Source: Deltaproteobacteria bacterium
GTDB lineage: Bacteria > Desulfobacterota > Desulfarculia > Desulfarculales > Desulfarculaceae
DNA: 42,042 nt
Direction of reading: 5' to 3'
NCBI GenBank assembly: GCA_020444205.1
Contig: JAHLLJ010000018.1
Span: forward strand, 1 to 42,042
Shown here in pieces: positions 12,740 to 26,274 of this stretch. A model generated the notes under the pieces. It was not told the origin of the DNA. It ran no database searches and saw only the letters and a list, made by a program, of their open reading frames with translations. Position 1 is the first letter of the stretch; the number at the start of each line of letters is the position of its first letter. Position numbers and translations under genes: made by a program.

Positions 12740-13448
12740 GACCGTTCAACCGCAAGTTAAGCAGGTGGCGCAGGGAAATCGGGTAGCGCCGGCTGGTGGC
12801 GTATTTGGACTGGCCCCACTGGCGGCGGCGGTGCCGGACAGGCACGCCCTTGACCCGGCCGCCTTGCATATGGATGAGCAGGGGGACCAGGCGATGAGCC
12901 CCCCGGTCCCACTCCAAGGAGCGCAGCCGGTCGGTGGGAACGGCGCGCAGGCCGCAGTTCACGTCTCGGAAGCGGCGATTGAAAAGCAGCCAAATGAGTT
13001 GGTTGTATAGCCAGGAGGGCAGGCGTTTGCCCAGGAAATCATCCTGGCGGTGAACCCGGATACCGTGCACGCACTCATATCCTTGCCGCACCAATTTCAC
13101 CATTTCAGGGATGTGGCCTGGGTCTTCCTGCAGGTCGGCGTCGATGGTCACCGTGATCGGGGCCCTGGCCCGGGCCAACCCGGCTGCCAAGGCGGCGCTT
13201 TTGCCTGAGTGAGGGATGCGCAGCAAGGTGAAGCCCTGGCACTCTTGCAGCAGGCTCTCAGTGCGGTCGTCGGAGCCGTCGTCCACCACGATAACCTCGG
13301 CCTCCAGGGAGTCGATCAGCCCGGCCAGGCCTTTGTAAAGATCGGCTATGCAGTCTTGTTCGTTGTAGACAGGAACTACTATGGAAACGGCAGGTGATGC
13401 CTTGTTACACAGCTCAGCCTCTAATATGCTCGTTTGGCGGGCAGACAC
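12732..13448 (-). CDS. Family 2 glycosyltransferase (polyprenyl-phosphate sugar synthase-like)
   Basis: A 238-residue GT2 protein with the GT-A start VSIVVPVYNEQDCI, the VVDDGSDDRT segment, the catalytic DADLQEDPG (from residue 103) and a C-terminal QWGQSKYATSRRY, typical of dolichyl/undecaprenyl-phosphate mannose or glucose synthases. It lacks C-terminal membrane helices, as in the short DPM1 type. The GTG start has GAGGAG five bases upstream. First gene of the operon. It probably attaches a nucleotide sugar to undecaprenyl phosphate at the cytoplasmic face; the convergent GT-C-like protein could then use that donor outside. Confidence 0.88.
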   Translation of the reverse strand: MSARQTSILEAELCNKASPAVSIVVPVYNEQDCIADLYKGLAGLIDSLEAEVIVVDDGSDDRTESLLQECQGFTLLRIPHSGKSAALAAGLARARAPITVTIDADLQEDPGHIPEMVKLVRQGYECVHGIRVHRQDDFLGKRLPSWLYNQLIWLLFNRRFRDVNCGLRAVPTDRLRSLEWDRGAHRLVPLLIHMQGGRVKGVPVRHRRRQWGQSKYATSRRYPISLRHLLNLRLNGHV

Positions 13449-13934
13449 GTCAACTCCTCAAAAATGGCGGACACGGAGCTCGGCGCACGTACAATGTTGG
13501 AAAATGCTTAGTAAATTCTAACAAAACTTCCACTGCCAAAGAACCACTTAATAAGCTGAAAAGCAGTCTTTTGGGGCGGGGCTTTTGTCGGCGCGTCGAC
13601 ACCGGAGAGGCCCGGGCCGGTGCGAGGAAAAAGCACTATCATTGGCAGGAAAATTTAATTGCAGTACCATGGCATAAAAATAGGGGATAGGCAAGTATCC
13701 CTCATTATATCACTGAAAATTCTGGTCCTATTGGCGGGACGGGCGTCGGCGGCTCGCAACTTAGCAGGCGGTTGGCTTAAATCTAGGTACAGTGTGCGCA
13801 CCGCCAGCATCTTGGGCACGATGTTCCCTGTTCGGGCGCTGGGCCGATGATTTGTTGGCAGCAAGGCCTGGCACCTGTAATTTCCAGGATCAGAGTCCCG
13901 GCGGGTTTGGCCGTCTTGCCGCCGCGTGGCGGCT
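13449..13934. other. Intergenic region upstream of the GT2 operon
   Basis: About 490 bases with lower G+C near 13480-13560 that must contain the GT2 promoter. A GCCGCC/GGCGGC hairpin (13918-13933) directly follows the stop of the receiver-PAS-GGDEF gene and may end its transcript, though no T-run follows. A 69-codon minus-strand frame (13655-13864) has no ribosome site or recognisable sequence. I see no gene. Confidence 0.5.
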
Positions 13935-15200
13935 TCAGGCCTTCAGGGCCTCCACCCGGTTGCGGCCTTTTCCCTTGGCCTGGTACAGGGCCTGGTCACC
14001 GCGTTTGAGCCAGGAATCCAGGTCGTCGGACTCGGGGTCAAAAGCGGCTACCCCCAGGCTTATGGTGCAGGCGATTTGACGGCCTTCGGCCTTGAAGGTG
14101 TGTCCCTGAATGCGCCAGCGCAACCTTTCGGCCACTTCCAATGCGGCTTGCAGACCAGTTTCCGGCAGGATTATGGAGAACTCCTCACCGCCCACCCGGC
14201 CAAAAAGGTCGCTTTCGCGCAGCTCTTGGCTGATCAGCTGGGTGAGCTTTCTGAGCACCAGGTCGCCGGCATGGTGCCCCAGGTTGTCGTTGACCGTTTT
14301 GAATTCATCGACATCCACGTTTATCAAGGAGATGGGGTTGCCGTAGCGCCTGGCGCGCTTGGTCTCCAAAGAGGCGGTGTACATGAACTGGCGGCGGTTG
14401 GCGATGCCGGTCAGCTCATCGGTGATGGACAGGCGGCGCAGCTCCTCCTCCATCTTCTTGAGGTTGGAGATGTCCAGGAAGCTCTCCACCAGGCGCTCCC
14501 GGCCGTCCAGGCTGACCTGGGCCACGGTCTTGAGGATGGGCCTCATTTGGCCGTTGGATTGGCGCAACTCCTGTTCGGAGTTGTCGGAGGCTTTTCCTTG
14601 ATCGGTGATGGGGCATCCCCCCTTTTGATCCAGGCACAGGTAGCGGTGGCAGACAGACCCGATCACCTCAGCGGGGGAGGCCTTGAACATCTCCAGGGCC
14701 ACGGAGTTGGCGTCCACGATGCGGTGGTCGGTGGGCTCGACGATGAGGATGCCCGCCTGTATGGAGTCCAACAACTCGCGCACCAGCTTTTGGCTGCGCA
14801 ACAGGGCCTGCTCTATCTCGTTTCGCTCCCTGGAGTAGCGTATGGCCCGCTCCATGGTCTTGGGGTCGGTCTCGGATTTAACCAGGTAATCCTGGGCCCC
14901 CTCCCGGATAGCCTGAAAGGCGATTTCCTCGTCATCAAGGCTGCTCAGCACCACTATGGCTTTGTCCGAGAAAAGGTTTTTCATGCTGCGCAGGGTGTCC
15001 AGCCCCTCGCTGTCGGGCAGGAACAGGTCGAGCAGAATGGCGTCAGGATCAAAGTCCTGGGCCGCGGCGGCGGCCTGCTCCACAGTCTCCACCGCCCTCA
15101 GTTCATACTCGTCATTGGCCATTTCGTGCAAAATGCCTTTTATGAGCACGCTGTAGGTCTTGCTGTCCTCCACTACCAAAAGGCGAACCAAGCGGCGCAT
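13935..15200 (-). CDS. Response regulator with receiver, PAS and GGDEF domains
   Basis: A 421-residue protein: receiver domain (1-125, phospho-acceptor D58 in LLDLFLPD), a PAS domain (about 140-250) containing a Cys-rich CHRYLCLDQKGGCPI stretch that might bind a metal or sense redox, and a GGDEF domain. The active motif GGEEF is at 337-341 and an RESD inhibitory site at 328-331, so it should be an active, feedback-controlled diguanylate cyclase switched by phosphorylation. It lies 382 bases downstream of the phosphorelay operon on the same strand. Kinases of that operon are the obvious phosphodonor candidates. Confidence 0.88.
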   Translation of the reverse strand: MRRLVRLLVVEDSKTYSVLIKGILHEMANDEYELRAVETVEQAAAAAQDFDPDAILLDLFLPDSEGLDTLRSMKNLFSDKAIVVLSSLDDEEIAFQAIREGAQDYLVKSETDPKTMERAIRYSRERNEIEQALLRSQKLVRELLDSIQAGILIVEPTDHRIVDANSVALEMFKASPAEVIGSVCHRYLCLDQKGGCPITDQGKASDNSEQELRQSNGQMRPILKTVAQVSLDGRERLVESFLDISNLKKMEEELRRLSITDELTGIANRRQFMYTASLETKRARRYGNPISLINVDVDEFKTVNDNLGHHAGDLVLRKLTQLISQELRESDLFGRVGGEEFSIILPETGLQAALEVAERLRWRIQGHTFKAEGRQIACTISLGVAAFDPESDDLDSWLKRGDQALYQAKGKGRNRVEALKA

Positions 15201-15582
15201 GAGATTTACCTCACCAAGACAAAATCACAAGGTGTTTGCTGTTTAGTGCAAGGCTGAAGGGCGGGACAATCACTGGTAGACCCATGGTAATAGAGCATTT
15301 TCCCCGGCGGCGTCCGCCATCCAACCTTTGGTCAGAGCATATCCGGCGAGAGGCCGGGGGGCAAGCAAATGTCCCTGCCCCGCCCCGGTAGGAGGGGTGT
15401 TTGCCCTCGGGGCGGGCAAGAAAAGCAAGTGGGTTTTGCCACACCGGAGGTGGGCCCGAACCATGCCGCTACTGCGGTCCCTCTGGCATGGCTCATGGCC
15501 CTGCTTCATGCCCGGCCAGGGCATTTGGCTCTAATGATCGGGCAGGCGGGGGGCGCTCGGCCAGGAACGGGTTTGGCAGGCC
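15201..15582. other. Intergenic region with a large G+C-rich hairpin
   Basis: Lies between the single-receiver gene and the GGDEF response regulator. It holds an 11-base-pair stem with one bulge, TGCCC(C)GCCCCG, at 15376-15418 and probably the promoter of the GGDEF gene nearer 15200. No open frame here is supported and no known riboswitch core was recognised. Confidence 0.5.
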
Positions 15583-16014
15583 CTACCAGCCGTACTTCTT
15601 TAGGGCCTCGCGGACCGCGGCTTCCCTGGTCTGGTCGTCGATATCGATGCGCCGCGCCTTGCCTTCCTTGATCTTTTCAACCAACTGGTCCAGGTCCGCG
15701 GGCTTTTCCATGAAGTCCAGGGCCCCCAGGCGCATGGCCTCCACGCCGACTTGCACGCTGGCGTGGCCGGTAAGCAAGATTATCTGGAGGCTGGGCTTGT
15801 TGGCCAGGGCCTGCTTCAAGGTTTCCATGCCGTCCACCTTGGGCATTTGCAGGTCCAGTACGATGGCGTCGTAAAGATTCTGACCAATCTTTTCCAGGGC
15901 CTGGGCCCCGTCCAGGGCCGTGTCCACCAGGCAACCCCGGTTGCTCAGGCGTTCGCTGACGCTCTCCAGGAAGTCGGGATCGTCATCGACAACTAACACC
16001 CTGATGTCTTGCAT
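15583..16014 (-). CDS. Single-domain response regulator (receiver)
   Basis: A 143-residue receiver: acidic pocket VVDDDPD (from residue 8), phospho-acceptor D54 (IVLDLQMPKVDG), the LLTGHAS switch segment and the FMEKPADLDQL lysine motif. About 25 residues follow the domain (TREAAVREALKKYGW) without a recognisable output domain, so it probably works as a phosphorelay intermediate or through protein contact. It is the last gene of the phosphorelay operon, 68 bases after the beta-carbonic anhydrase gene. Its receiver resembles those in the cytidylate-kinase fusion and the 17396 gene. Confidence 0.88.
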   Translation of the reverse strand: MQDIRVLVVDDDPDFLESVSERLSNRGCLVDTALDGAQALEKIGQNLYDAIVLDLQMPKVDGMETLKQALANKPSLQIILLTGHASVQVGVEAMRLGALDFMEKPADLDQLVEKIKEGKARRIDIDDQTREAAVREALKKYGW

Positions 16015-16082
16015 CGCTACCCTCCTATTTGGTTGCGGCTTTGCGCGGCCGCCAGGTTCCGTTGGTTGGGCGCTTCGCCCGT

Positions 16083-16748
16083 CTACTCAGGTTCCAGCCA
16101 TCTTACACGACCATGGGCCAGATCGTATATGGCTCCCACCGCGGCGAAGTCGCCGTCGGCCACTCCCTGCTTTATGGCCGGGCTCTGCTGGAAAAGCGTG
16201 CGCATGGTGTGCCTGACGTTTTCCTCTATGGCCCGGTCCAGCAGCTCGCCACCCTCTGCCTCGGCGGAATCGGCCATGGCCTGGTGCACTGCCGGGGCGA
16301 TGCCGTCCAACAGTTGGCGCAGGCTGGCCTCGTGGGGCACCGCGTTGTCCTTGACCATGTTCAAGGCAGCGGTCACCGCGCCGCAGCTGCTGTGGCCCAG
16401 CACCACCAATAGTGGGGTGTGCACGTGCAGCATACCGTATTCCACCGAGGCCAGGGTGGCGGAGTCCAGAGCGTGTCCCGCTGTCCGTACCACGAACAGG
16501 TCCATGATGCCAACATCGAAAATAAGCTCAACCGGCACCCGCGAATCCGAGCAGGACAACACCGTGGCCAGGGCATGATGGGCTTGGTCGCCCAAATGGG
16601 CTTGGCGCCGCCGCAACATGCCGCTGCGGGGATAGCGGGGACGGTCCATCACAAAACGCTGGTTGCCTTCGCTAAGGTCGGCCAACACCTCCCGGGGCTC
16701 CGGTTTGTCGGGCCGGGCGGCGTGTTTGGCTTGCTCGTTACTGCTCAT
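16083..16748 (-). CDS. Beta-class carbonic anhydrase
   Basis: A 221-residue beta-carbonic anhydrase that interconverts CO2 and bicarbonate. All zinc-site residues are visible: C66 and D68-R70 in CSDSRVP, then H119 and C122 in LGHSSCGAV. There is no signal peptide, so it is cytoplasmic. Six bases separate it from the kinase-like gene upstream, and it is transcribed in one block with the SulP transporter. Bacterial SulP proteins include bicarbonate importers and some are found fused or linked to beta-carbonic anhydrases, so joint handling of inorganic carbon is a reasonable inference. Confidence 0.92.
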   Translation of the reverse strand: MSSNEQAKHAARPDKPEPREVLADLSEGNQRFVMDRPRYPRSGMLRRRQAHLGDQAHHALATVLSCSDSRVPVELIFDVGIMDLFVVRTAGHALDSATLASVEYGMLHVHTPLLVVLGHSSCGAVTAALNMVKDNAVPHEASLRQLLDGIAPAVHQAMADSAEAEGGELLDRAIEENVRHTMRTLFQQSPAIKQGVADGDFAAVGAIYDLAHGRVRWLEPE

Positions 16749-16754
16749 TATATT

Positions 16755-17393
16755 TTACCCTCCCTTGGCCCGCGCCGGGGGCAACTCCACTTCCATGAGG
16801 TTGCCATCCAGGCGCAGGTTTACTCCCAGTTCGGTCAGAAACTCAGGGGGCAGCTCCCCGGGCTCCTGCTCCAGCTCCCCCTGGAGCCGCAGCAACGCAC
16901 CGGGCTCGGCGCTTTGCAGGCCCACGCGCAGCACCGATCCCCTAACCGCGGCCTGAACCATGGCCGACAGGCAGCGCCACAGCAGCCTTTCCATGTCCAG
17001 GGTGGGCAGGCCCACGCTCAGGGAGTCCGGGGTGTCCTGCTCCAGGGTCACGTTCATCAGCGCGGCCTGCCTGGTGAACAGGCCGCACATAAGCTGGAGG
17101 CACTTGACCGCGTCGCATACGGGGCCGGTCTCCTCGGCGCTGTGGGCAAAGGCGTTCAGGCGCTTGACCGCCTGGTCGGCCCGCGAAACCCGCTCTATCA
17201 CCCGCCCGATAAGCTGGTGCAGGCGATCGGGGTCCGGCTCCCGCCCCTGGGCGGCCATCTCCAACATCTCGCTGATAAGGTGGCTCTGCTCATTGATGAC
17301 GGCCAGTTCGTTTTTGATCTCATGGGTGGCGCTGCGGGTGACCTTGCCGAACAGCTCGGCATATCCCGGATGTTGCCCTGGGGTGTCCGCCAT
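16755..17393 (-). CDS. Histidine-kinase-like protein with a degenerate ATPase domain
   Basis: A 212-residue protein with a HisKA-type dimerisation helix, H24 in SATHEIKNELAVINEQSHLI, and a second long helix (about 55-85). The C-terminal half occupies the place of a HATPase domain, but the N-box is replaced by LLWRCLSAMVQAA and no DxGxG or GTGLGL box follows, so ATP binding is unlikely. It may act as a histidine phosphotransferase or a phosphatase/scaffold between the neighbouring receivers. It is two bases from the receiver gene upstream and six from the beta-carbonic anhydrase gene. No transmembrane segment. Confidence 0.75.
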   Translation of the reverse strand: MADTPGQHPGYAELFGKVTRSATHEIKNELAVINEQSHLISEMLEMAAQGREPDPDRLHQLIGRVIERVSRADQAVKRLNAFAHSAEETGPVCDAVKCLQLMCGLFTRQAALMNVTLEQDTPDSLSVGLPTLDMERLLWRCLSAMVQAAVRGSVLRVGLQSAEPGALLRLQGELEQEPGELPPEFLTELGVNLRLDGNLMEVELPPARAKGG

Positions 17394-17395
17394 TG

Positions 17396-17758
17396 CTATT
17401 GCTCCCGTTCGCCGCCACCCTGCATCAGGGCGATCAGGTCGTCGATGTCCACCGGTTTGACCAGATACAGATCAGCCCCCATCTCCAAGGCGCGGTCCAG
17501 ATCCTCCGGGGCGCTGTGCCCGGTGAGCAGGATTATGCGCGCCTCGGGGCGGGCCAGCTTGATGGCCTGGATGGCCTCGTAGCCGCTGAGCCCGGGCATT
17601 TTAAGATCCACCACCACCCAGTCGTAGGCCTGGTCCCGGACCATCTTCAGGCCCTGTTCGCCGCTGGTGGCCCAATCGCTGTCAATGTCGCGGATCTCCA
17701 GGCGCTCGCATAAAGTGGTCACCAGCTCCTTCTCATCGTCGATGAGCAAAACCCTCAT
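17396..17758 (-). CDS. Single-domain response regulator (receiver)
   Basis: A 120-residue stand-alone CheY-like receiver: LLIDDEKE acidic pocket, D51 in VVVDLKMPGLSG, LLTGHSA switch segment and LVKPVDIDDL lysine motif. It fills the whole protein, with no output domain. The gene is one base from the sensor kinase upstream and two bases from the kinase-like protein downstream, which suggests kinase to receiver to phosphotransferase flow. Confidence 0.9.
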   Translation of the reverse strand: MRVLLIDDEKELVTTLCERLEIRDIDSDWATSGEQGLKMVRDQAYDWVVVDLKMPGLSGYEAIQAIKLARPEARIILLTGHSAPEDLDRALEMGADLYLVKPVDIDDLIALMQGGGEREQ

Positions 17759-17759
17759 T

Positions 17760-19514
17760 TCATACTTCCATTCTTGCGGCGTCCTCGCCGCCGGCGCCTT
17801 CCATACGGTGGGAGCGTTGCTTCACGGGCAGGTAAACAATAAAGGAAGTTCCCTGGCCGGGTTCACTGATCACGTCGATGTGTCCGCCCAGCTTCTGGAC
17901 GATACCGTAGGTGATGGACAGGCCCAGGCCGGTTCCCTTCTCCCCCTTGGTGGAGAAAAACGGTTCGAAAATGTTCTTGAGGTCTTGGGAGGCGATGCCG
18001 ATTCCATAGTCGGTTACGGTGATGGCCACCTGCTCGTCGTCCGGGCTGGCCACCGAGATATCTATGCTGTCGCCGTCTTCGACAGCCGCCAGGGCGTTGT
18101 TGATGATGTTTAAAAGCACCTGCTGTATTTGGCCCTTGTCGGCCTCCAGGGTGGGCACGTGGTCGGGTATGTCCACGTTGATGGTGATATTGCGGTACTG
18201 AGCCTCCCGCCCCAAAAAGCCCAACACCTCCTTGACCAGCGCGGCCAGGTGTATCTGCTCGGACTTCACCGGCAAATGGCGGGCAAAGCCCAGCAGCCGG
18301 TGGGTGATCTCGCTTACCCGGCGTACCGAGTCCTTGATCACCTTGATCTGGTCCATGAACTTTTCCTTGCGGGGGAAGTCTTCACTCAGCCCCAGGATGT
18401 CGCCCATGAGGCCCACCTTCTCGTTGATGATGGCCACCGGGTTGTTGATTTCGTGGGCCACCCCCGCGGCCAGGCGGCCGATGGAGGCCAGCTTGTTGGT
18501 GTATTCAACCTCGTGCAGCATGGCCACCCGCCTCAGGTCCGCCTCGTAGATGCGGTTGACCAGGGTGGCCGAGCCCCACCAGATGACCACCAGGATGGCG
18601 GCCACCGACAAGCCCACCATGACGATGATGTTGATGCGCAACAGATCCCACTTCTGCAGCAGGGCCGCCGGCTGCTTTACCACCACCAGCAAGAACGGCG
18701 AACCCTCCACCTTGGCCGAGGCCACCAAAAAAGGCGGCTCATCGCCTTGGCGGGTCTCGGTGACCTTGCCCACCGAGGCGGGCAGGGACTCGAAATGGGT
18801 GAGCACTCCGCCGAACAAGGTGGACGGGGTCTGGAGGACTCCTTCCTGGTTGACCAGGAAGATGTCGCCGATGGGGTGCAGGTCCGTGGCTGAGAGCAGG
18901 CTGTTGAGCTTGCCGGTGTCTATGGTGGCCCGAAGCACATAGGACTGCTCGTCATGTCGCTCATGGCGCACCGCGATGACGAAGTGGGGGAAGTTGCGGT
19001 GTCCCAGGAACACATCGCTGATGTAGATGCCCCGAATCTGCACTTCCTTGTACCAGTCTTGGTTCTTGTAGTCGCGTCCCTCCAGGTTGTATGGACCAAT
19101 GTAGGCGCGCTGGATGCCCTGGCCGTCGATGAGGCCCAGGTCCACGAAGCCGCCGAAGGCCATGCGCAGGCGTCTAAAAACCGTGGACAGGTGCTTGCGG
19201 TCCGATAGCTCGTTGAAGGTGTTGGCCAGGTTCACATAGGCCAGAGCAGCCCGGCGCTCTTCCAGGAAGTTGGCCAGCTGCACCTTGTTCACTGCCAGCA
19301 GGCGTTGGACGTGGCTGGTTATCTCCTTGCGTTGAAGCTGGTACTGCTCCTCGAACTGGTAAAAGTTGATGCCCGCCAAAAACACCAGGGGGGCCAGGGT
19401 AACGGCAATGGCCGAAAACAAGGTGGTGCGCCACAAGCGGCGGTAGTTGAGCAGCTCCAGCTCCGAATCGCTCCGGTTCCAGAAAGCCGGCTTGATTTTG
19501 CGCCAGATGCCCAA
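17760..19514 (-). CDS. Membrane sensor histidine kinase with a periplasmic Cache-like domain
   Basis: A 584-residue kinase. One membrane helix near 30-50 and another near 310-335 frame a periplasmic region (about 52-305) with double-Cache features (AYIGPYNLEGRDYKNQDWYK, then ISDVFLGHRNFPHFVIAV). The HisKA box has H354 in AAGVAHEINNPVAIINEKVG, and the HATPase domain has an N-box (INNALAAVEDG), DYGIGIA and GTGLGLSI. It therefore senses a small external ligand and autophosphorylates. Two bases separate it from the cytidylate-kinase/receiver gene and one from the next receiver gene, its likely phospho-acceptors. Confidence 0.92.
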   Translation of the reverse strand: MGIWRKIKPAFWNRSDSELELLNYRRLWRTTLFSAIAVTLAPLVFLAGINFYQFEEQYQLQRKEITSHVQRLLAVNKVQLANFLEERRAALAYVNLANTFNELSDRKHLSTVFRRLRMAFGGFVDLGLIDGQGIQRAYIGPYNLEGRDYKNQDWYKEVQIRGIYISDVFLGHRNFPHFVIAVRHERHDEQSYVLRATIDTGKLNSLLSATDLHPIGDIFLVNQEGVLQTPSTLFGGVLTHFESLPASVGKVTETRQGDEPPFLVASAKVEGSPFLLVVVKQPAALLQKWDLLRINIIVMVGLSVAAILVVIWWGSATLVNRIYEADLRRVAMLHEVEYTNKLASIGRLAAGVAHEINNPVAIINEKVGLMGDILGLSEDFPRKEKFMDQIKVIKDSVRRVSEITHRLLGFARHLPVKSEQIHLAALVKEVLGFLGREAQYRNITINVDIPDHVPTLEADKGQIQQVLLNIINNALAAVEDGDSIDISVASPDDEQVAITVTDYGIGIASQDLKNIFEPFFSTKGEKGTGLGLSITYGIVQKLGGHIDVISEPGQGTSFIVYLPVKQRSHRMEGAGGEDAARMEV

Positions 19515-19516
19515 GC

Positions 19517-20743
19517 TCAGCCCTCCTGGCCCCGCACCTTGTCATAGGCCGCTTGCATGGTCTGGGAGAGCTTATCGATGTCCACCGGCTTCTCCAGGTA
19601 GGCAAAGGCGCCCAGGTCCATGCACATCTCCATGTCGCGTTGCGAGCCGTGTCCGGTGAGGATTATCACCTCCACCTTGGGGTAGTCGCTCTTGATGCGC
19701 TTGAGCACCTCGATGCCGTCGATGCCGGGCATCTTGAGATCCAGCACCAGCACCTCGGGCTCGTCCTCGGCCACCATCTTGAGAGCCTGTTCGCCGTCGT
19801 AGGCCACCGCCGAGCCGATCTCCCTGAGCAGCAGGCGCTCGGACAAGGTCTGGGCGAACTCGCGCTCGTCGTCCACCAAAAGCACCTTGGAGGGGAGCTG
19901 GAAGTCGGCCTGACGGTACACGTCGGCATGGTAGAAGCCAGGGCCCGGCTCCACCTTGACCTCCTTGACCCCGGCCACCTGGCCGGCCAGGTCTTCCAGG
20001 TCCTTGCTCAGCTTGTTCAAGCGCAGCACCTTCTTGTTGACCTGGATGTCTATGGTTCCTCCCTTGGCAGCCACCTGGATGTCTTTGCCGCTATGCCCGT
20101 GGCCGGAAAGGACCTGCTCCACCTGGGCGGCCAACAAGAAGTCCTGCGCCGCCTGGCGCGAAATATCGGTCACCGCCAGGGGGCCTCCCTGGGCCTGCTC
20201 GACAATGAAGCCGGCGGCCTCGCCCGGCTCACGCTTGTCCATGGGCAGCAGGATGTCGTAGTGCTTGGCGTCCCAGGGGTCCAGGTCCAGCAAGTACTCC
20301 GCCCAGCGGATGGCCGATTCGTCGTCGCGGTGCACCCGGGCCAGGGCCTCCTTTTCGCCCAAGCCAAGCTCCCGACCGGCCCGGGCGGCCCGGTATTTGG
20401 TTTCGGCGATAAGGCAGACCTCCAGCACGTGACTGATGGTCCGGGGCACCAACAGGGACAGATGCCCCAGCAGGACCAGGCCGTCCTTTTCAGCCAGCAG
20501 CTTGGCCGTGGCCAGCTTAAGGGCGCTCACGGCCCGCTCTTTTTCATGGGAGAATTGGTTGAATATGGAGGTGCGGCCGTAAATGGCCCGGCGCAGCACA
20601 CCGGCCTCCGGGCCGCCGTTACGGTCCACCAGGCCCATGACGTCCTCATCGCGCAGCATCTCGACCTGCAGGCGCGAAGCCACATCCTGGGCCACTTCCT
20701 CGGCCCCGCAAAAGGAGCCGCTCATTATGGTTACCACGCTCAT
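19517..20743 (-). CDS. Cytidylate-kinase-like domain fused to a receiver domain
   Basis: A 408-residue fusion. Residues 1-205 resemble the cytidylate kinase-2 family (VTIMSGSFCGAEEVAQDVAS, a helical lid with KYRAARAGRELGLGEKEALA, and the DESAIRWAEYLLDLDPWDA region). The P-loop, however, is SGSFCGAEE without a GK[ST], so nucleotide phosphorylation is doubtful. A linker (about 215-300) has a BON-like strand/helix pattern. Residues 285-408 are a receiver with D335 (VLDLKMPGIDG), LTGHGSQ and LEKPVDIDKL. The gene sits three bases from sulP and two from the sensor kinase gene. The kinase-like domain may sense nucleotides or be an output module. Confidence 0.82.
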   Translation of the reverse strand: MSVVTIMSGSFCGAEEVAQDVASRLQVEMLRDEDVMGLVDRNGGPEAGVLRRAIYGRTSIFNQFSHEKERAVSALKLATAKLLAEKDGLVLLGHLSLLVPRTISHVLEVCLIAETKYRAARAGRELGLGEKEALARVHRDDESAIRWAEYLLDLDPWDAKHYDILLPMDKREPGEAAGFIVEQAQGGPLAVTDISRQAAQDFLLAAQVEQVLSGHGHSGKDIQVAAKGGTIDIQVNKKVLRLNKLSKDLEDLAGQVAGVKEVKVEPGPGFYHADVYRQADFQLPSKVLLVDDEREFAQTLSERLLLREIGSAVAYDGEQALKMVAEDEPEVLVLDLKMPGIDGIEVLKRIKSDYPKVEVIILTGHGSQRDMEMCMDLGAFAYLEKPVDIDKLSQTMQAAYDKVRGQEG

Positions 20744-20746
20744 GAT

Positions 20747-22939
20747 TTATGCTCCCTCTCCCACGTGGACCTTGTCCAGCGGGCAGACTGTCGTCAGGGG
20801 GCAGGACTCCTCGCGCGAGTCCCGGTGCGCCGATTCATGGATGGCGGCTATGGCGTTGGCCGCCAAGGGGTAGATATGGTCTTCCCCAATCTTGGCCAGC
20901 AGGTGGGTGCGTTCCATGACATCCAATACGCCTTCTTTGATATGAGAGAAGCTAATGTCGTATCCGGCGCTGCGCACCCGGTCTATCACCAGCGACAAGG
21001 CCTCCTCGCCCGAGGCGTCAATGTCGTTGATGCCGTTGGCTACCACCAGTATATGCCTTAGATTAGGCATGTTGCGGATTCTCTCGTCGATCTGGTCTTC
21101 CAGGAAGCTGGCGTTGGCAAAGAACAACGGGCCGTCGAAACGGACAACCGCCACGTGCTCGCACTGCCTAAGCTTGAAGTGCTCGGCGTCGCGCAGGGCG
21201 CAATCGTTGTGCATGGCCAGGGCGGCCACCTTGGGCCGCATGCTCTTGTACAAAAACACCAGCAAAGAAAGGACCACGCCGATCATGATGCCCTTGTCCA
21301 GGTGAGGGGCATAGATCAGGGTGCAGATGAAGGTCAGAATGCTGATGGCGCCGTCATACCACTGGGCCCGCCAGGCGTGAATGAAACCGGTGACGTTGAT
21401 CAGCCCCACCACCGCCATCATGATGACCGCGGCCAACACCGCCTGGGGCAGGTTGTAGAGCAGGGGAGTGAAGAACAAGAGCACGATGACCACCATCAGG
21501 CTGGTCACCACGCTGGACAGGCCGGTGAATGCGCCGGCCTGCAGGTTTACCGCCGACCTGGAGAAAGAACCCGACACCGGATAGCTTTTGCCCAGGCAGC
21601 CGATGATGTTGGCCAGGCCCTGGCCGACCAACTCCTGGTTGGGGTCCAGTCGCTGGCCGGTCTTGGCGGCCATGGCCTTGGCGATGCTGATGGCCTCCAT
21701 AAAGCCCAGCAGCGAGATGATGATGGCATAGGGGAAAAGCTGCAGACCCACGCCCCAGTCCAGCGAGGGGATGGACAGGGTGGGCAGACCGGGCGGGATG
21801 TCGCCCACCACCGCGCCGCCGCCCATCATGGTCAGCTTGGTGGTGTCCAGGGGACGGTTGCCCACCTTGACGCGCCAGGTCCGGCCGTCGGTCTCGGTAC
21901 CCGCCGGTTGGCTCCCCTCCAGATAGAAGAGCAGGTCGCCGCCCGGCTGAGGCACGCCCACGAACTTGTGGTCGCGCAGGGCGGTGCGCAGATGGTGAGC
22001 CTTGCCCTTTTCCAGCTCGATCAGGGCGGTGTCCAGGGAAGCCTCCTGCTTGAGCTTGAGGCCTTCCAGGGATTCGGTCCCCTTTTCCTGGGTAACCTGC
22101 TGGACCTTTTTGTTCACCGTGGCCCGGGCATCGCCCAACTCGTTGATGCGCTTGACCTCCTGGTTGAACTGGGTGATCTGGCCGCGCACCTGGGGAGACA
22201 TAATGGAGGCCAGCTCCACCTTGCGGTCGTGGTGGAAGCCGGTGGCCCAGGAAACCAGGATGGCCGCGGCCACGGCCACCAATACGTAAGGAATCTTGGG
22301 GTTGAGCCTCTTTAGGCCGTACATCACCGCGAAGGCCCCCACCCCCATGGCCAGGGTGGGCCAGTGGGTGTAGTCCACCGCCCCCTCGATGACCCGCCAG
22401 ATGGTCTCGTAGTGGTGCTCGGCCTTGTCCACGTAGACCCCGAACATCTTGGAGAGCTGGCTGGAGGCGATGATTATGGCCGCCGCGTTGGTGAATCCGT
22501 TGACCACCGGGTGGGAAAGAAAGTTCACCACCAGGCCCAGGCGCAGCACTCCCAGGAGTAGCTGGAAGATGCCCACCACCAGGGCCAGCAGGATGGCATA
22601 GGCGATGAACGCCTCGCTGCCCGCGGTGGCCAGGGGCTCCAGGCTGGCGCTGGTCATCAGCGACACCACGGCCACCGGCCCGGTGGCCAGCTGCATGCTG
22701 CTGCCGAACATGGCGGCGATCATGGGCGGCAAAAAGGCCGCGTACAGGCCGTAGTAGGCGGGTAGTCCCGCCAACTGGGCATAGGCCATGGATTGGGGTA
22801 TCAGCACCAGGGCCACGGTGATGCCCGCAATGGCGTCCACCCTGAAGGCCGATACGCTGTAGTTGCGGAACCAGCCCAAGAAGGGCAGCAGGCGTACTAT
22901 GATGCCCGGCTCCGAATTGTTGGCTGAGGTTTTGCTCAT
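20747..22939 (-). CDS. SulP family anion transporter with STAS domain and an unusual cytosolic insertion
   Basis: A 730-residue SulP transporter (sulfate/bicarbonate/anion). The N-terminal signature is clear (LIPQSMAYAQLAGLPAYYGL) as are ATGPVAVVSLM and the later SYPVSGSFSRSAVNLQAGA. The C-terminal STAS domain (about 590-700) contains NGINDIDASGEEAL. Between about residues 235 and 377, where usual SulP proteins have only a short loop, lies an extra 140-residue hydrophilic segment, partly coiled-coil (EVKRINELGDARATVNKKVQ) and partly beta-rich. The start is the ATG overlapping the NtrC-type stop (ATGA), not the longer upstream frame. Substrate is uncertain: sulfate or bicarbonate, the latter favoured by the nearby beta-carbonic anhydrase. 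Confidence 0.9.
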   Translation of the reverse strand: MSKTSANNSEPGIIVRLLPFLGWFRNYSVSAFRVDAIAGITVALVLIPQSMAYAQLAGLPAYYGLYAAFLPPMIAAMFGSSMQLATGPVAVVSLMTSASLEPLATAGSEAFIAYAILLALVVGIFQLLLGVLRLGLVVNFLSHPVVNGFTNAAAIIIASSQLSKMFGVYVDKAEHHYETIWRVIEGAVDYTHWPTLAMGVGAFAVMYGLKRLNPKIPYVLVAVAAAILVSWATGFHHDRKVELASIMSPQVRGQITQFNQEVKRINELGDARATVNKKVQQVTQEKGTESLEGLKLKQEASLDTALIELEKGKAHHLRTALRDHKFVGVPQPGGDLLFYLEGSQPAGTETDGRTWRVKVGNRPLDTTKLTMMGGGAVVGDIPPGLPTLSIPSLDWGVGLQLFPYAIIISLLGFMEAISIAKAMAAKTGQRLDPNQELVGQGLANIIGCLGKSYPVSGSFSRSAVNLQAGAFTGLSSVVTSLMVVIVLLFFTPLLYNLPQAVLAAVIMMAVVGLINVTGFIHAWRAQWYDGAISILTFICTLIYAPHLDKGIMIGVVLSLLVFLYKSMRPKVAALAMHNDCALRDAEHFKLRQCEHVAVVRFDGPLFFANASFLEDQIDERIRNMPNLRHILVVANGINDIDASGEEALSLVIDRVRSAGYDISFSHIKEGVLDVMERTHLLAKIGEDHIYPLAANAIAAIHESAHRDSREESCPLTTVCPLDKVHVGEGA

Positions 22940-24300
22940 TGATCCAGTCCGAATTTCTTGATCTTGCGCCACAGGGACACTCGATCGATACTCAGTATTT
23001 CGGCCGCCCTGGTCTTGTTCCCCCCGGTGTGGGCGAGCACTTGCTTGATGTACTCGCACTCCTTCTCTTCCAGGGTGGGCAGCCGCCCCTTCCCTTGCTT
23101 ATGGCCCGCGGCCTCCACCGCGGCCTTTACCTCCTCGGTCAGATCCGCCGTCTCCAGCCTTCCACCGGCCTTGAGCGTCACCGCCCGTTCGATGATGTTT
23201 TCCAGCTCGCGCACGTTGCCCGGAAACTCATAGGCCATGAGCATTTCCATGGCCTCTGGGGACATCTCTATGGTGTCCTTGCCTTGGTGGCTGGCGTGCT
23301 TGCGCAAAAAGTGATTGGCCAGCAGCGGGATATCATCGCGGTGCCGGCGCAGCGGCGGCAGCTCCAAACGCACCACGTTGATGCGGTAGTAGAGGTCCGA
23401 GCGGAAAATTCCCTCCTCCACCAGGGCGGACAGGTCGCGGTGGGTGGCGGCCACGATGCGCACGTCCACCGGGATGGGATCGGTGCCGCCCACCCTGGTC
23501 AGCTCCTTTTCCTGTATCACCCTTAGGAGCTTGACCTGCATGGCCTTGGGCATGTCGCCGATCTCGTCCAAAAGCACCGTGCCCCCATTGGCCGCCTCGA
23601 ACAAGCCCGGCTTGGTGGCGTTGGCCCCGGTGAAGGCGCCCTTTTCGTGGCCAAAGAGTTCGCTGACCAAAAGCTCCTGGGCAAAGGCGCCGCAGTTGAA
23701 GGCCACGAAGCGCTTCTCGGCCCGGTGACTGGCGTGGTGCAGGGCCCGGGCGAAAAGCTCCTTGCCGGTGCCGGTCTCGCCCACGATGAGAACGCTGCTG
23801 TCGCTGGGGGCCACCTGGGCCACCACCCGGATCAGTTCCTGGATACGCGGATGGTTGCCCACGATGCCCTCCACCCCGTCGCGGGCCCTTAGGTCCTGCT
23901 TGAGGGTTTCCACCTCGCGGGTGAGGCGGGCCTTTTCCAGGGCATGGGCCACCTGGGCCCTGACCTCGTCGATCTTGTAGGGCTTGGCGATGTAGTGGAA
24001 AGCGCCGTGCTTCATGGCCTGGATGGCCGAATCCACCGAAGCGAAAGCGGTGAGCATGATCACCTCGGTGGTGGGGCTGGCGCGCTTTACCTCTTCCAGG
24101 ACCCGCATACCGTCTATCTTTTCCATGCGCAGGTCGGTGAGCACCAGGTCGTAGGGCTTCTTGGCAAAAAGCTGCAGGGCCTCGGCCCCGCCGGAGGCGG
24201 CGGTCACCTGGTACTCGCCGCCGTGCTCCAGGATGTGCTGCAGGTTCTTGCGGGCCAGGGCGTCGTCTTCCACTATGAGGAGCTTGGGCTTGGTACTCAT
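22936..24300 (-). CDS. Sigma-54-dependent NtrC-family response regulator
   Basis: A 454-residue three-domain regulator: receiver (1-125, D56 in LVLTDLRMEKIDG), sigma-54-interacting AAA+ domain with Walker A GETGTGKE, the GAFTGA loop (HEKGAFTGANA) and Walker B GTVLLDEIGDM, and a C-terminal Fis-type helix-turn-helix (NKTRAAEILSIDRVSLWRKI). It activates sigma-54 promoters when phosphorylated. It overlaps the sulP start by four bases and follows the sensor kinase by three bases, so the kinase-regulator pair heads the operon. The GAFTGA motif is intact. The target promoters are not identified; none of canonical spacing was found just upstream of the operon. Confidence 0.94.
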   Translation of the reverse strand: MSTKPKLLIVEDDALARKNLQHILEHGGEYQVTAASGGAEALQLFAKKPYDLVLTDLRMEKIDGMRVLEEVKRASPTTEVIMLTAFASVDSAIQAMKHGAFHYIAKPYKIDEVRAQVAHALEKARLTREVETLKQDLRARDGVEGIVGNHPRIQELIRVVAQVAPSDSSVLIVGETGTGKELFARALHHASHRAEKRFVAFNCGAFAQELLVSELFGHEKGAFTGANATKPGLFEAANGGTVLLDEIGDMPKAMQVKLLRVIQEKELTRVGGTDPIPVDVRIVAATHRDLSALVEEGIFRSDLYYRINVVRLELPPLRRHRDDIPLLANHFLRKHASHQGKDTIEMSPEAMEMLMAYEFPGNVRELENIIERAVTLKAGGRLETADLTEEVKAAVEAAGHKQGKGRLPTLEEKECEYIKQVLAHTGGNKTRAAEILSIDRVSLWRKIKKFGLDQ

Positions 24301-24303
24301 GAC

Positions 24304-25740
24304 TCAGCTCCTCCCGGTGTCCATGGGCAGGATTATGGTGAAGCGGGCCCCGCGCCCGTCCTTGTTCTCGGCCTCTATGTGGCCGTTGTGGCGCTCCACC
24401 ACCCCGTAGGTGATGGACAGGCCCAGGCCGGTGCCTCTGCCCACGTCCTTGGTGGTGAAAAAGGGATCGAAGATGCGCGGCAACACCTCGCTGGGAATGC
24501 CCGGGCCGGTGTCTTCCAGCACCAGCTCCACCCGCCTGGTCTGGGCCAGGGTGCGCGCGGTTATGGTCAGGGTGCCGGCCTCGCCCATGGCCTGGACGGC
24601 GTTCATGGCCAGGTTCAACAGGGCTTGCACCATGTGGGCCTTGTCCATCTGCACCTGGATGCCGTCGGGCACCAGCAGGCGCACCTCCACCCCGGAGGGG
24701 ATCTCGCCCCGGATCAATTTGAGGCCATCCTCCACCACGGTGCGCAGGTTCTCCCGGCGCAGCCGAAAATCGCGCTGGCGGGCGAACTCCAAAAGGGAGC
24801 TGACGATGTCGCGGGCCTTGGCCACCTGCTGGTCTATGGCCGCCAATAGCTCCCGGTGATACTCGCCCACCTCCTGGCCCAGCTCTTCCAAAAGTATCTG
24901 GCAGGAGGTGGAGATGTTGTTCAGGGGATTGTTCAGCTCGTGGGCCACGCCGCTGGTCAGGGTGCCCAGGGCGGTGAGCTTTTCGGTCTGGATCATTTGC
25001 TCATTGTTGTGCCTGAGCTGCTTGACCATGCGGTTGAAGGCCTGGACCAGGCTGCCGATCTCGTCACGGTGCTTGGCCCAGGGGATGGTCTGATAGTCGC
25101 CGTGGGCCACCACCTCGGTGGCTTCTTCAATGACGTGCAGGGGGCGTATGAGGCGGGCGATGAGCGAGTAGGCCAAGATGGCCCCCAGCCCGGCCAGGAG
25201 CACCAAGAAGGCCACCAATAGGGGACGGTATTCACGCAAAAGGTCGGTGATGCCCTGGCGCTCGGAGCGGGCCAAGACCTCCAGACGCTGGATCAGCTCC
25301 TTGCCCGAGGCGCGCAGCTTGGTGATGGCCTGGTCCATCTCGGCCACCCCGGAGCCGCCGCCAAAGTGATCATGCACCCATACGAACTGGCGCCGGTAGT
25401 CGGCCGAGACCTTTTGCAGCCCGGCGATGGCCGCCTCGCCGTGGCCGCGCGTCAGGTGCTTACGGTCGGCGGCCAGCATGGCCTCGTAGCGGTCAAGATA
25501 GTCCAGGGCTTGGCGGAAGTCCTGGTCGTGGCGGTATAGGAAATAGTTCTTCTCGTAGCGCCGGGCCTCCAGGGCCATGTTGACCATGCCGTCGGCCTGA
25601 CTCAGGAAGACCAGTTTTTGCTCCATGCCCAGGAAGTAGCTGTAGCTGAGCACCCCGAAAAGGGCCATGCCCAAAAAGGCGGCCACAAACCCCACCGCCA
25701 GGCGAACCCTGATTTTGCTCAGTCCCTGCCAAATCCCCAT
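24304..25740 (-). CDS. Membrane sensor histidine kinase with HAMP domain
   Basis: A 478-residue kinase: transmembrane helix 1 (about 10-32), an extracytoplasmic helical sensor (about 35-165; GMVNMALEARRYEKNYFLYR is like the four-helix sensors of NtrY-type and chemoreceptor proteins), transmembrane helix 2 (about 175-197), HAMP (about 198-250), HisKA with H267 (GVAHELNNPLNN) and HATPase with N-box NLAMNAVQAMGEAG, EDTGPGI and GTGLGLSITYG. The longer upstream frame is rejected because the ATG at 25740 has GGAG six bases before it. It is the first gene of the phosphorelay operon and the cognate kinase of the NtrC-type regulator three bases downstream. Confidence 0.92.
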   Translation of the reverse strand: MGIWQGLSKIRVRLAVGFVAAFLGMALFGVLSYSYFLGMEQKLVFLSQADGMVNMALEARRYEKNYFLYRHDQDFRQALDYLDRYEAMLAADRKHLTRGHGEAAIAGLQKVSADYRRQFVWVHDHFGGGSGVAEMDQAITKLRASGKELIQRLEVLARSERQGITDLLREYRPLLVAFLVLLAGLGAILAYSLIARLIRPLHVIEEATEVVAHGDYQTIPWAKHRDEIGSLVQAFNRMVKQLRHNNEQMIQTEKLTALGTLTSGVAHELNNPLNNISTSCQILLEELGQEVGEYHRELLAAIDQQVAKARDIVSSLLEFARQRDFRLRRENLRTVVEDGLKLIRGEIPSGVEVRLLVPDGIQVQMDKAHMVQALLNLAMNAVQAMGEAGTLTITARTLAQTRRVELVLEDTGPGIPSEVLPRIFDPFFTTKDVGRGTGLGLSITYGVVERHNGHIEAENKDGRGARFTIILPMDTGRS

Positions 25741-26274
25741 GATGTTCTCCGCTCCCGCCCCGGCTGCCGCATCTCGGCGGCTCTTTTGCCCGGCAAAAAG
25801 GCCTCGAAGTCCCGGCAATGGCGCGAAGAGGCTATGCACATCTGACGCATGCATGCCCTCTATTGCATGTAAGAATCATGCCAAAGACCTATATGCCCCG
25901 GCTCAACCGGTGATTATAGTTGTGAAAAACCCCTCAAGCCGCCATCCGCTCCGGCCTTTGCCGGTGTTGTCATTTGCAACAATAGCTAATGGGTAAACCC
26001 ACAAATTGCCGCGATATTACAAGCAATTATACCAAATATAGCCTACCTGGCGGAAAGTGTTTCATAATTCAACGATAAGCCCGGTGCGTGGGCCGAGGGA
26101 TGTGAGCGGCCAAGGCCATGGATAGGCGAAGGGCCCGCATAGGCCTGGCAGGCCCGGCCGCCGCGCTCGGCCAAAAAAATAAATCCACCCTTGCCCCAAG
26201 GGGCGCGGCATGGGAGCCTGGGGACCACAAGATGGCCGTAAAGGTCCATGAATATGTGCTGTTAGGGGGTAGTT
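25741..26274. other. Divergent intergenic region between the phosphorelay operon and the MFS gene
   Basis: About 530 bases, AT-rich between 25860 and 26080. It must hold the promoters of the large minus-strand operon and of the MFS gene. It contains a 17-base palindrome at 25965-25981. No canonical GG-N10-GC sigma-54 site of good quality was found, and no gene is supported in it. Confidence 0.55.
25965..25981. promoter_or_regulatory. Palindrome TGTTGTCATTTGCAACA, possible activator site
   Basis: TGTTG-N7-CAACA, the size and shape of an NtrC-family upstream activation site. It is about 225 bases before the sensor kinase start and about 295 before the MFS start. Function is inferred only from form. 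Confidence 0.4.

Follow-up and report, generated by a model that had tools for sequence, protein, structure and literature searches.

A SulP transporter and its phosphorelay genes form a probable sulfate-uptake control operon of sulfate-reducer type

Why would one anion transporter be encoded among five receiver domains and three HisKA-type proteins? The question is raised by contig JAHLLJ010000018.1 (assembly GCA_020444205.1) of a Deltaproteobacteria bacterium of the family Desulfarculaceae, whose positions 1 to 42,042 were analysed as a single stretch of 42,042 nucleotides, referred to as the window. A sequence-only reading of the window had proposed a nine-gene phosphorelay operon built around a SulP transporter and a beta-carbonic anhydrase (CA), that would serve inorganic carbon or sulfate homeostasis with sigma-54 and cyclic di-GMP (c-di-GMP) outputs. 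A Pfam scan of the window proteins confirmed all ten minus-strand genes that it had named, in the same order and on the same strand, and bore out its count of five receivers and three HisKA-type proteins across them. Nine of the ten run from 25740 to 15583, with junction gaps of, in order, 3, −4, 3, 2, 1, 2, 6 and 68 bases; the first eight are packed head to tail, 68 bases separate the CA gene from that of the last receiver, REC2, and 382 bases separate REC2 from the tenth gene, which encodes a GGDEF protein. Most of these genes are found together again in other bacteria, for the most part sulfate reducers, so their probable role is the control of sulfate uptake, and we regard the set as a likely operon of sulfate-reducer type.

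The survey behind this view used as its marker the kinase-like part of a fusion between a Cytidylate_kin2 domain and a receiver (19517..20743, Pfam; this and all features located below lie on the minus strand). Of 395 genomes in the window's phylum, 124 gave a match to the marker; in 50, spanning 21 family labels, it reached E ≤ 1e-34. These 50 are our module genomes; besides the window's own, loci were read from 48 of the other 49 (G301 was left out), and the 74 genomes with weaker matches lay outside the locus survey. From 60 genome stretches and the best 80 of 300 relatives we obtained 117 unique fusion loci after collapsing on the 150 C-terminal residues of the fusion, and loci with too little flank were dropped count by count, leaving 108, 90 or 89 testable. 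Protein alignments covered part of the sequences (A1, 32 of 53; A2, 53 of 58; A3, 55 of 77).

Across these loci a core emerges in the order SulP, Cytidylate_kin2/receiver fusion, dCache kinase, receiver, HisKA-only protein, receiver. In 97 of 108 testable loci the gene directly upstream of the fusion is SulP, and 88 of the 99 gaps measured between the two are no longer than 100 bases. The next gene after the fusion is a dCache kinase in 78 of 90 loci, at least two receivers lie downstream of the fusion in 68, and a HisKA-only gene falls within the run in 75 by strict label (78 when three genes labelled only as histidine kinase, in L119–L121, are included). The strict tail of kinase, receiver, HisKA-only protein and receiver occurs in 57 of 90 loci under the final labels and 56 under earlier ones; SulP together with this tail was found in 12 of the 21 family labels, and two genomes of an Acidobacteriota sample hold the core, arranged differently. 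Recurrence of the core order in relatives makes the gene set more than a chance assembly, and the idea of a multi-receiver relay around SulP stands. The co-occurrence check nevertheless dissolved the proposed nine-gene block: the nine genes are not one evolutionary unit, and the conserved unit is smaller, with the GGDEF gene outside it and both the CA gene and the upstream pair encoding a kinase (HK1) and an NtrC-type regulator lineage-specific.

Eleven testable loci lack SulP next to the fusion. Among them a DASS transporter lies in the run in L119–L121 and upstream in L122, and a TauE transporter lies in the run in L115 and L117; Pfam confirmed one TauE, as well as DASS in L119, L122 and L084. 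In the DASS clusters L119, L121, L122, L084 and L086 there are also genes for a sigma-54 activator and a NifX-like (Nitro_FeMo-Co) protein, joined in all of them but L122 by CBS proteins. In L171 and L091 the kinase, receivers and HisKA-like gene are transcribed divergently from SulP, as is the fusion too in L211.

Part of this picture is already described. A 2025 paper describes clusters in sulfate reducers in which SulP or DASS is accompanied by two-component genes with cache-domain kinases, the SulP clusters of Desulfobacteraceae also having TetR, and proposes sulfate sensing by the kinase (PMC11887813, available text). The window resembles the SulP, two-component system and TetR cluster given there in having SulP, a cache kinase and receivers, and differs from it in carrying HK1 and the NtrC-type regulator in place of TetR, plus the CA (PMC11887813, available text). 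The main text of that paper, as far as available, is without the terms cytidylate, phosphorelay, STAS and carbonic anhydrase, and the fusion may appear in its figures or supplements under another name (PMC11887813). Among the entries listed by our literature searches, which left out most subscription papers, we found no paper on the fusion, the HisKA-only relay protein, receiver–SulP fusions or the recurrent CA; the SulP loop and the NtrC replacement described below were likewise not met, though no search was aimed at either.

What, then, does the transporter carry? The SulP gene (20747..22939; Sulfate_transp and STAS in Pfam) most likely starts at 22939, with a four-base overlap with the regulator gene, and a mechanically called GTG start at 23059 is unlikely because of its overlap with that gene. 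The protein scored 440.5 bits against the TIGR00815 sulfate permease model (cut-off 380.45) and 47.3 bits against the Pfam STAS domain (cut-off 22.6). Its nearest solved relative is AtSULTR4;1 at 318 bits; 6ki1, which we take to be BicA, scored 88 bits. According to the available passages of PMC8298490, AtSULTR4;1 is an Arabidopsis H+/sulfate symporter in which Glu347 is needed for H+-driven transport. The window's Glu415 in transmembrane helix 8 (TM8; codon 21695..21697) aligns with this proton-coupling residue, and glutamate occupies the coupling site in all 96 fusion-adjacent SulPs that reach it, the other 3 of 99 being fragments. The window SulP thus shares with AtSULTR4;1 and the SLC26/SulP H+/sulfate symporters its family, its STAS domain and the Glu347 equivalent. 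It differs from AtSULTR4;1 in having a receiver partner (or, in relatives, a receiver fusion) and about 130 extra residues between TM7 and TM8. This loop, 144 residues long in the window (21803..22234), measures 138–169 residues in 94 of 96 spanning SulPs, and the remaining two, at 111 and 131, are open reading frames (ORFs) cut short; judging from family topology it would face outside, placing it in the periplasm. A CPL motif after STAS, at the SulP C terminus (20747–20850 in the window), is kept in more than 85% of aligned SulPs.

A BicA identity was considered and rejected, the NF050096 equivalog model giving 128.7 bits against a cut-off of 880. BicA belongs to the same SulP family, and the available text of PMC8298490 names the residue at its TM8 sodium site as aspartate in a discussion passage and as glutamate in another. 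Glutamate stands at this position in all 96 SulPs, so the window transporter, besides falling far below the BicA cut-off, has Glu where Asp is reported.

The CA gene (16083..16748; Pro_CA in Pfam) bears on the same question. The beta-CA metal-site motifs CxDxR and HxxC are both intact in its product, the former as CxDSR, and its best solved relative is the carbonic anhydrase 2a5v. The CA is a local addition in the window's genus: with the window's CA as the only query, so that other classes would be missed, we found it in 9 of 90 runs, seven being from the genus and the other two L131 and L162, and in none of six other Desulfarculaceae operons read. A further CA, in L136, falls outside this count because an opposite-strand ORF call broke the run. 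In L131, L162 and L136 the CA follows REC2 and is 37–47% identical to that of the window; the L131 and L162 enzymes share 78% identity, and the L136 enzyme, at 49% to that of L162, is a third type. As these enzymes differ from the window's, CA was probably recruited more than once, and it probably adjoins the SulP operon in two or three separate lineages.

If the operon served inorganic-carbon homeostasis, SulP would import or exchange bicarbonate, which the CA would supply or consume. An intact-motif beta-CA inside the operon in the seven genus loci, and the further CAs after REC2 in L131, L162 and L136, speak for such a link. We nonetheless consider it very improbable given the scarcity of the CA, the failure of the BicA model, the uniform coupling glutamate and the presence of DASS or TauE in some variants without SulP; inorganic carbon as the main cargo was demoted on the BicA model, the coupling residue and the CA distribution. 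In the CA-bearing lineages SulP might instead exchange the two anions, with the CA hydrating metabolic CO2 and SulP moving bicarbonate out as sulfate enters. Exchange is a known mode of animal SLC26 proteins (PMC8298490, available passages), and the CA has probably come to lie beside the SulP operon in more than one lineage; on the other side, AtSULTR4;1, which has this glutamate too, is a proton co-transporter (PMC8298490, available passages) and no CA was detected in most loci. We judge exchange unlikely, if somewhat less so than inorganic-carbon homeostasis.

The genomes that carry the module point to sulfate. The gene dsrA, whose status was read by hand along with the family tally (107 labels), is over cut-off in 187 of the 395 genomes of the phylum: in 46 of the 50 module genomes vs 141 of the 345 others (Fisher P = 2e-12), a figure inflated by shared ancestry. 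Counted by family label, the proportions are 20 of 21 vs 34 of 86 (P = 3e-6), with ancestry above the family level uncontrolled. Among 199 genomes of the Acidobacteriota sample, the two with a strong fusion both have dsrA, which occurs in 19 overall (P = 0.009). In the sample of the window's phylum, all five other members of the window's genus have dsrA. In the Acidobacteriota sample, kinase-like matches at E < 1e-12 occur in 16 of the 199 genomes, many of them frames of about 270–310 residues that lack the receiver's length; 15 of these 16 genomes have dsrA (E < 1e-110) vs 5 of the 183 others, relatedness being uncontrolled, and one (G436) holds four such matches on the same contig as dsrA. 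The kinase-like family may mark sulfate or sulfite metabolism.

Sulfate is favoured over inorganic carbon because AtSULTR4;1 is the nearest solved relative, the coupling glutamate is universal, the BicA model fails, DASS or TauE stands in some loci without SulP, and dsrA is associated with the module; SulP and DASS are both treated among the sulfate transporter families of sulfate reducers in the available text of PMC5840216. On these sequence comparisons sulfate is the likelier cargo, and that the cargo is sulfate or a close oxyanion appears likely. Of the two cargoes offered by the sequence-only reading, the second is therefore the one retained.

Several observations weigh against a role in sulfate uptake control. 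The bin to which the window belongs (82% complete, 342 contigs) gave no dsrA match and only weak, below-cut-off matches to aprA, and dsrA over cut-off is absent from the module genomes G042 (67% complete), G078 (62%) and G043 (94%). No transporter was recognised in the runs of three loci (L116, L188 and L196); the only DASS gene of L118 is on the opposite strand, and in L148 SulP is displaced by one gene. Two congeners, G196 and G053, carry the HisKA-only gene outside the operon, beside a REC2-type receiver; SulP and CA with signalling genes missing had been named beforehand as a finding that would count against a joint relay, and the operons of these two, which are without the HisKA-only gene, go part of the way towards it. 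Finally, in the published model, as given in the available text of PMC11887813, response regulators act on promoters.

How might the core proteins pass a signal? HK2 (17760..19514) is a sensor histidine kinase with HisKA and HATPase domains in Pfam and a dCache match of 36.0 bits, below the cut-off of 45. The kinase-like domain of the fusion matched Cytidylate_kin2 at 57.8 bits (cut-off 28), and all 55 relatives scanned also match this model. The Walker A P-loop motif, GxxxxGK[ST], is found in none of these 55, and because of this lack the domain more likely binds or docks than phosphorylates. Among sequences long enough to align, the phosphoacceptor aspartate is present in all 117 fusion receivers, in all 86 copies of the stand-alone receiver REC1 (17396..17758, Pfam) and in 77 of 80 copies of REC2 (15583..16014, Pfam). 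The REC2 tail after the receiver (15583–15620 in the window) ends in tryptophan, as do 68 stand-alone receivers of 138–160 residues, a set that was selected on this residue.

The HisKA-only protein (16755..17393) is a candidate dimeric histidine phosphotransferase. In the window it gave a weak HisKA match (18.5 bits, cut-off 26.9) and no HATPase match, and among 53 relatives HATPase_c was absent from all at E 0.01 while the HisKA model matched 40, so that the earlier description of a kinase-like protein without an ATP site is well founded. His24, Asn28, Glu35 and His84 are invariant in all 53. In a profile comparison with PDB, where kinases gave the best matches, it aligns with the phosphoacceptor and with a portion of the ATP-binding region of these solved proteins, and no histidine-phosphotransferase model is among the five Pfam families that the 53 members matched. 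ChpT shuttles phosphate through His33 and cannot use ATP (PMC3433190, available text). Like ChpT of Caulobacter and Spo0B of Bacillus, the HisKA-only protein has a histidine kinase-like segment, an invariant histidine and no detectable ATP-binding domain; unlike them, its members match no Pfam phosphotransferase model, and its partners appear to be transporter-linked receivers. We therefore call it ChpT-like and not a ChpT, because no member matched a phosphotransferase family. Its pairing with a REC2-type receiver away from the operon in G196 and G053 suggests that the two are partners. We hold it reasonably likely that a multi-step relay runs through the HisKA-only protein.

Where would such a relay end? 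REC1 is 79–156 residues long (85 loci) and REC2 79–181 (81 loci); judged by length, neither of these core receivers seems able to accommodate a usual DNA-binding domain as well, and the Pfam scan found no such domain in the window's fusion, REC1 or REC2. Because REC1 and REC2 leave little room for one, the model in which a kinase and a regulator act on a promoter (PMC11887813, available text) misfits the core by itself. In five loci SulP is fused to a receiver: four, from two genera, are in the window's phylum and one (L211) is in Acidobacteriota. The four SulP-fused receivers of the phylum form one clade (support 0.95), nearest to the fusion receivers (parent support only 0.73), and since the L211 receiver groups elsewhere, on a long branch, there were probably two separate fusion events. 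Short core receivers and these five SulP–receiver fusions make direct control of the SulP protein by the relay plausible, a prospect that we hold to be slightly short of probable.

The other possibility is that two-component control of sulfate-transporter expression is purely transcriptional, with the extra receivers and the HisKA-only protein merely tuning the flow of phosphate to DNA-binding regulators. Transcriptional control has been proposed for Desulfobacteraceae (PMC11887813, available text), and transcription factors do lie upstream, TetR in 57 and NtrC in 12 of 89 testable loci. A kinase together with NtrC precedes SulP in 11 of the 89, all of them Desulfarculaceae and including the window, so that the HK1/NtrC pair marks this family and occupies the position that TetR holds in most relatives. 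In the window the pair consists of HK1, a HAMP-HisKA-HATPase sensor kinase (24304..25740, Pfam), and an NtrC-type sigma-54 response regulator with receiver, AAA+ (sigma-54) and Fis helix-turn-helix domains (22936..24300, Pfam). An alternative HK1 start at 25854 is also open; in three sequences compared, the first 38 residues of this long form are less alike than the remainder. Against a purely transcriptional scheme stand the shortness of REC1 and REC2 and the want of a DNA-binding domain noted above, the SulP–receiver fusions, which point to the transporter as target, and the promoter region itself: a search of 10 Desulfarculaceae loci from −450 to +60 relative to HK1 gave no convincing or strong sigma-54 −24/−12 site, the best cores scoring 4–8 of 12 against the consensus. 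Such candidates do not stand out, because 670 sites of score 6–8 occur across both window strands. Sigma-54 autoregulation of HK1 was rejected, its best core matches lying within background; the sigma-54 regulator itself is real. We consider purely transcriptional control rather unlikely.

The tenth gene encodes a REC-PAS-GGDEF protein (13935..15200, Pfam) and is a neighbour only. Beyond the 382-base gap that sets it apart, a GGDEF protein occurs in just 2 of 90 runs, those of the window and L158, and on these two grounds the suggested c-di-GMP output was rejected. A terminator scan of 13400–16100 gave one site, after the GGDEF gene, with 3.0 expected by chance; since no terminator-like site lies between REC2 and the GGDEF gene, the two may still be co-transcribed in this organism.

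For the preferred reading, control of sulfate uptake, we propose the following course of events. HK2 would sense an anion outside the cell, most likely sulfate, and phosphorylate REC1, the receiver of the fusion, or both. The HisKA-only protein, working like ChpT or Spo0B, would carry phosphoryl groups from one receiver to another, and the fusion would act on SulP through its STAS or membrane domain, so that uptake tracks both external sulfate and cellular state. The second kinase and the NtrC-type regulator would give Desulfarculaceae transcriptional control in TetR's stead, and in the window's genus the added CA could perhaps provide proton or bicarbonate buffering next to an H+-coupled transporter. 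In its fullest form, the proposal is that a phosphorelay of dCache kinase, kinase-derived phosphotransferase and transporter-docking pseudo-cytidylate-kinase receiver acts as a direct on–off switch for a SulP/SLC26 transporter and so sets sulfate influx in sulfate reducers, the receiver–transporter fusion having arisen probably twice and CA having been recruited more than once; we offer this combined picture tentatively, as a possibility drawn from comparative sequence data.

Dissimilatory sulfate reduction begins with the uptake of sulfate, for which the regulation that has been proposed is based on genome context. The conserved core puts names to concrete partners in that regulation, namely the Cytidylate_kin2/receiver fusion, the HisKA-only protein and a SulP with a long loop, and the natural receiver–transporter fusions make direct phospho-control of a SulP testable.

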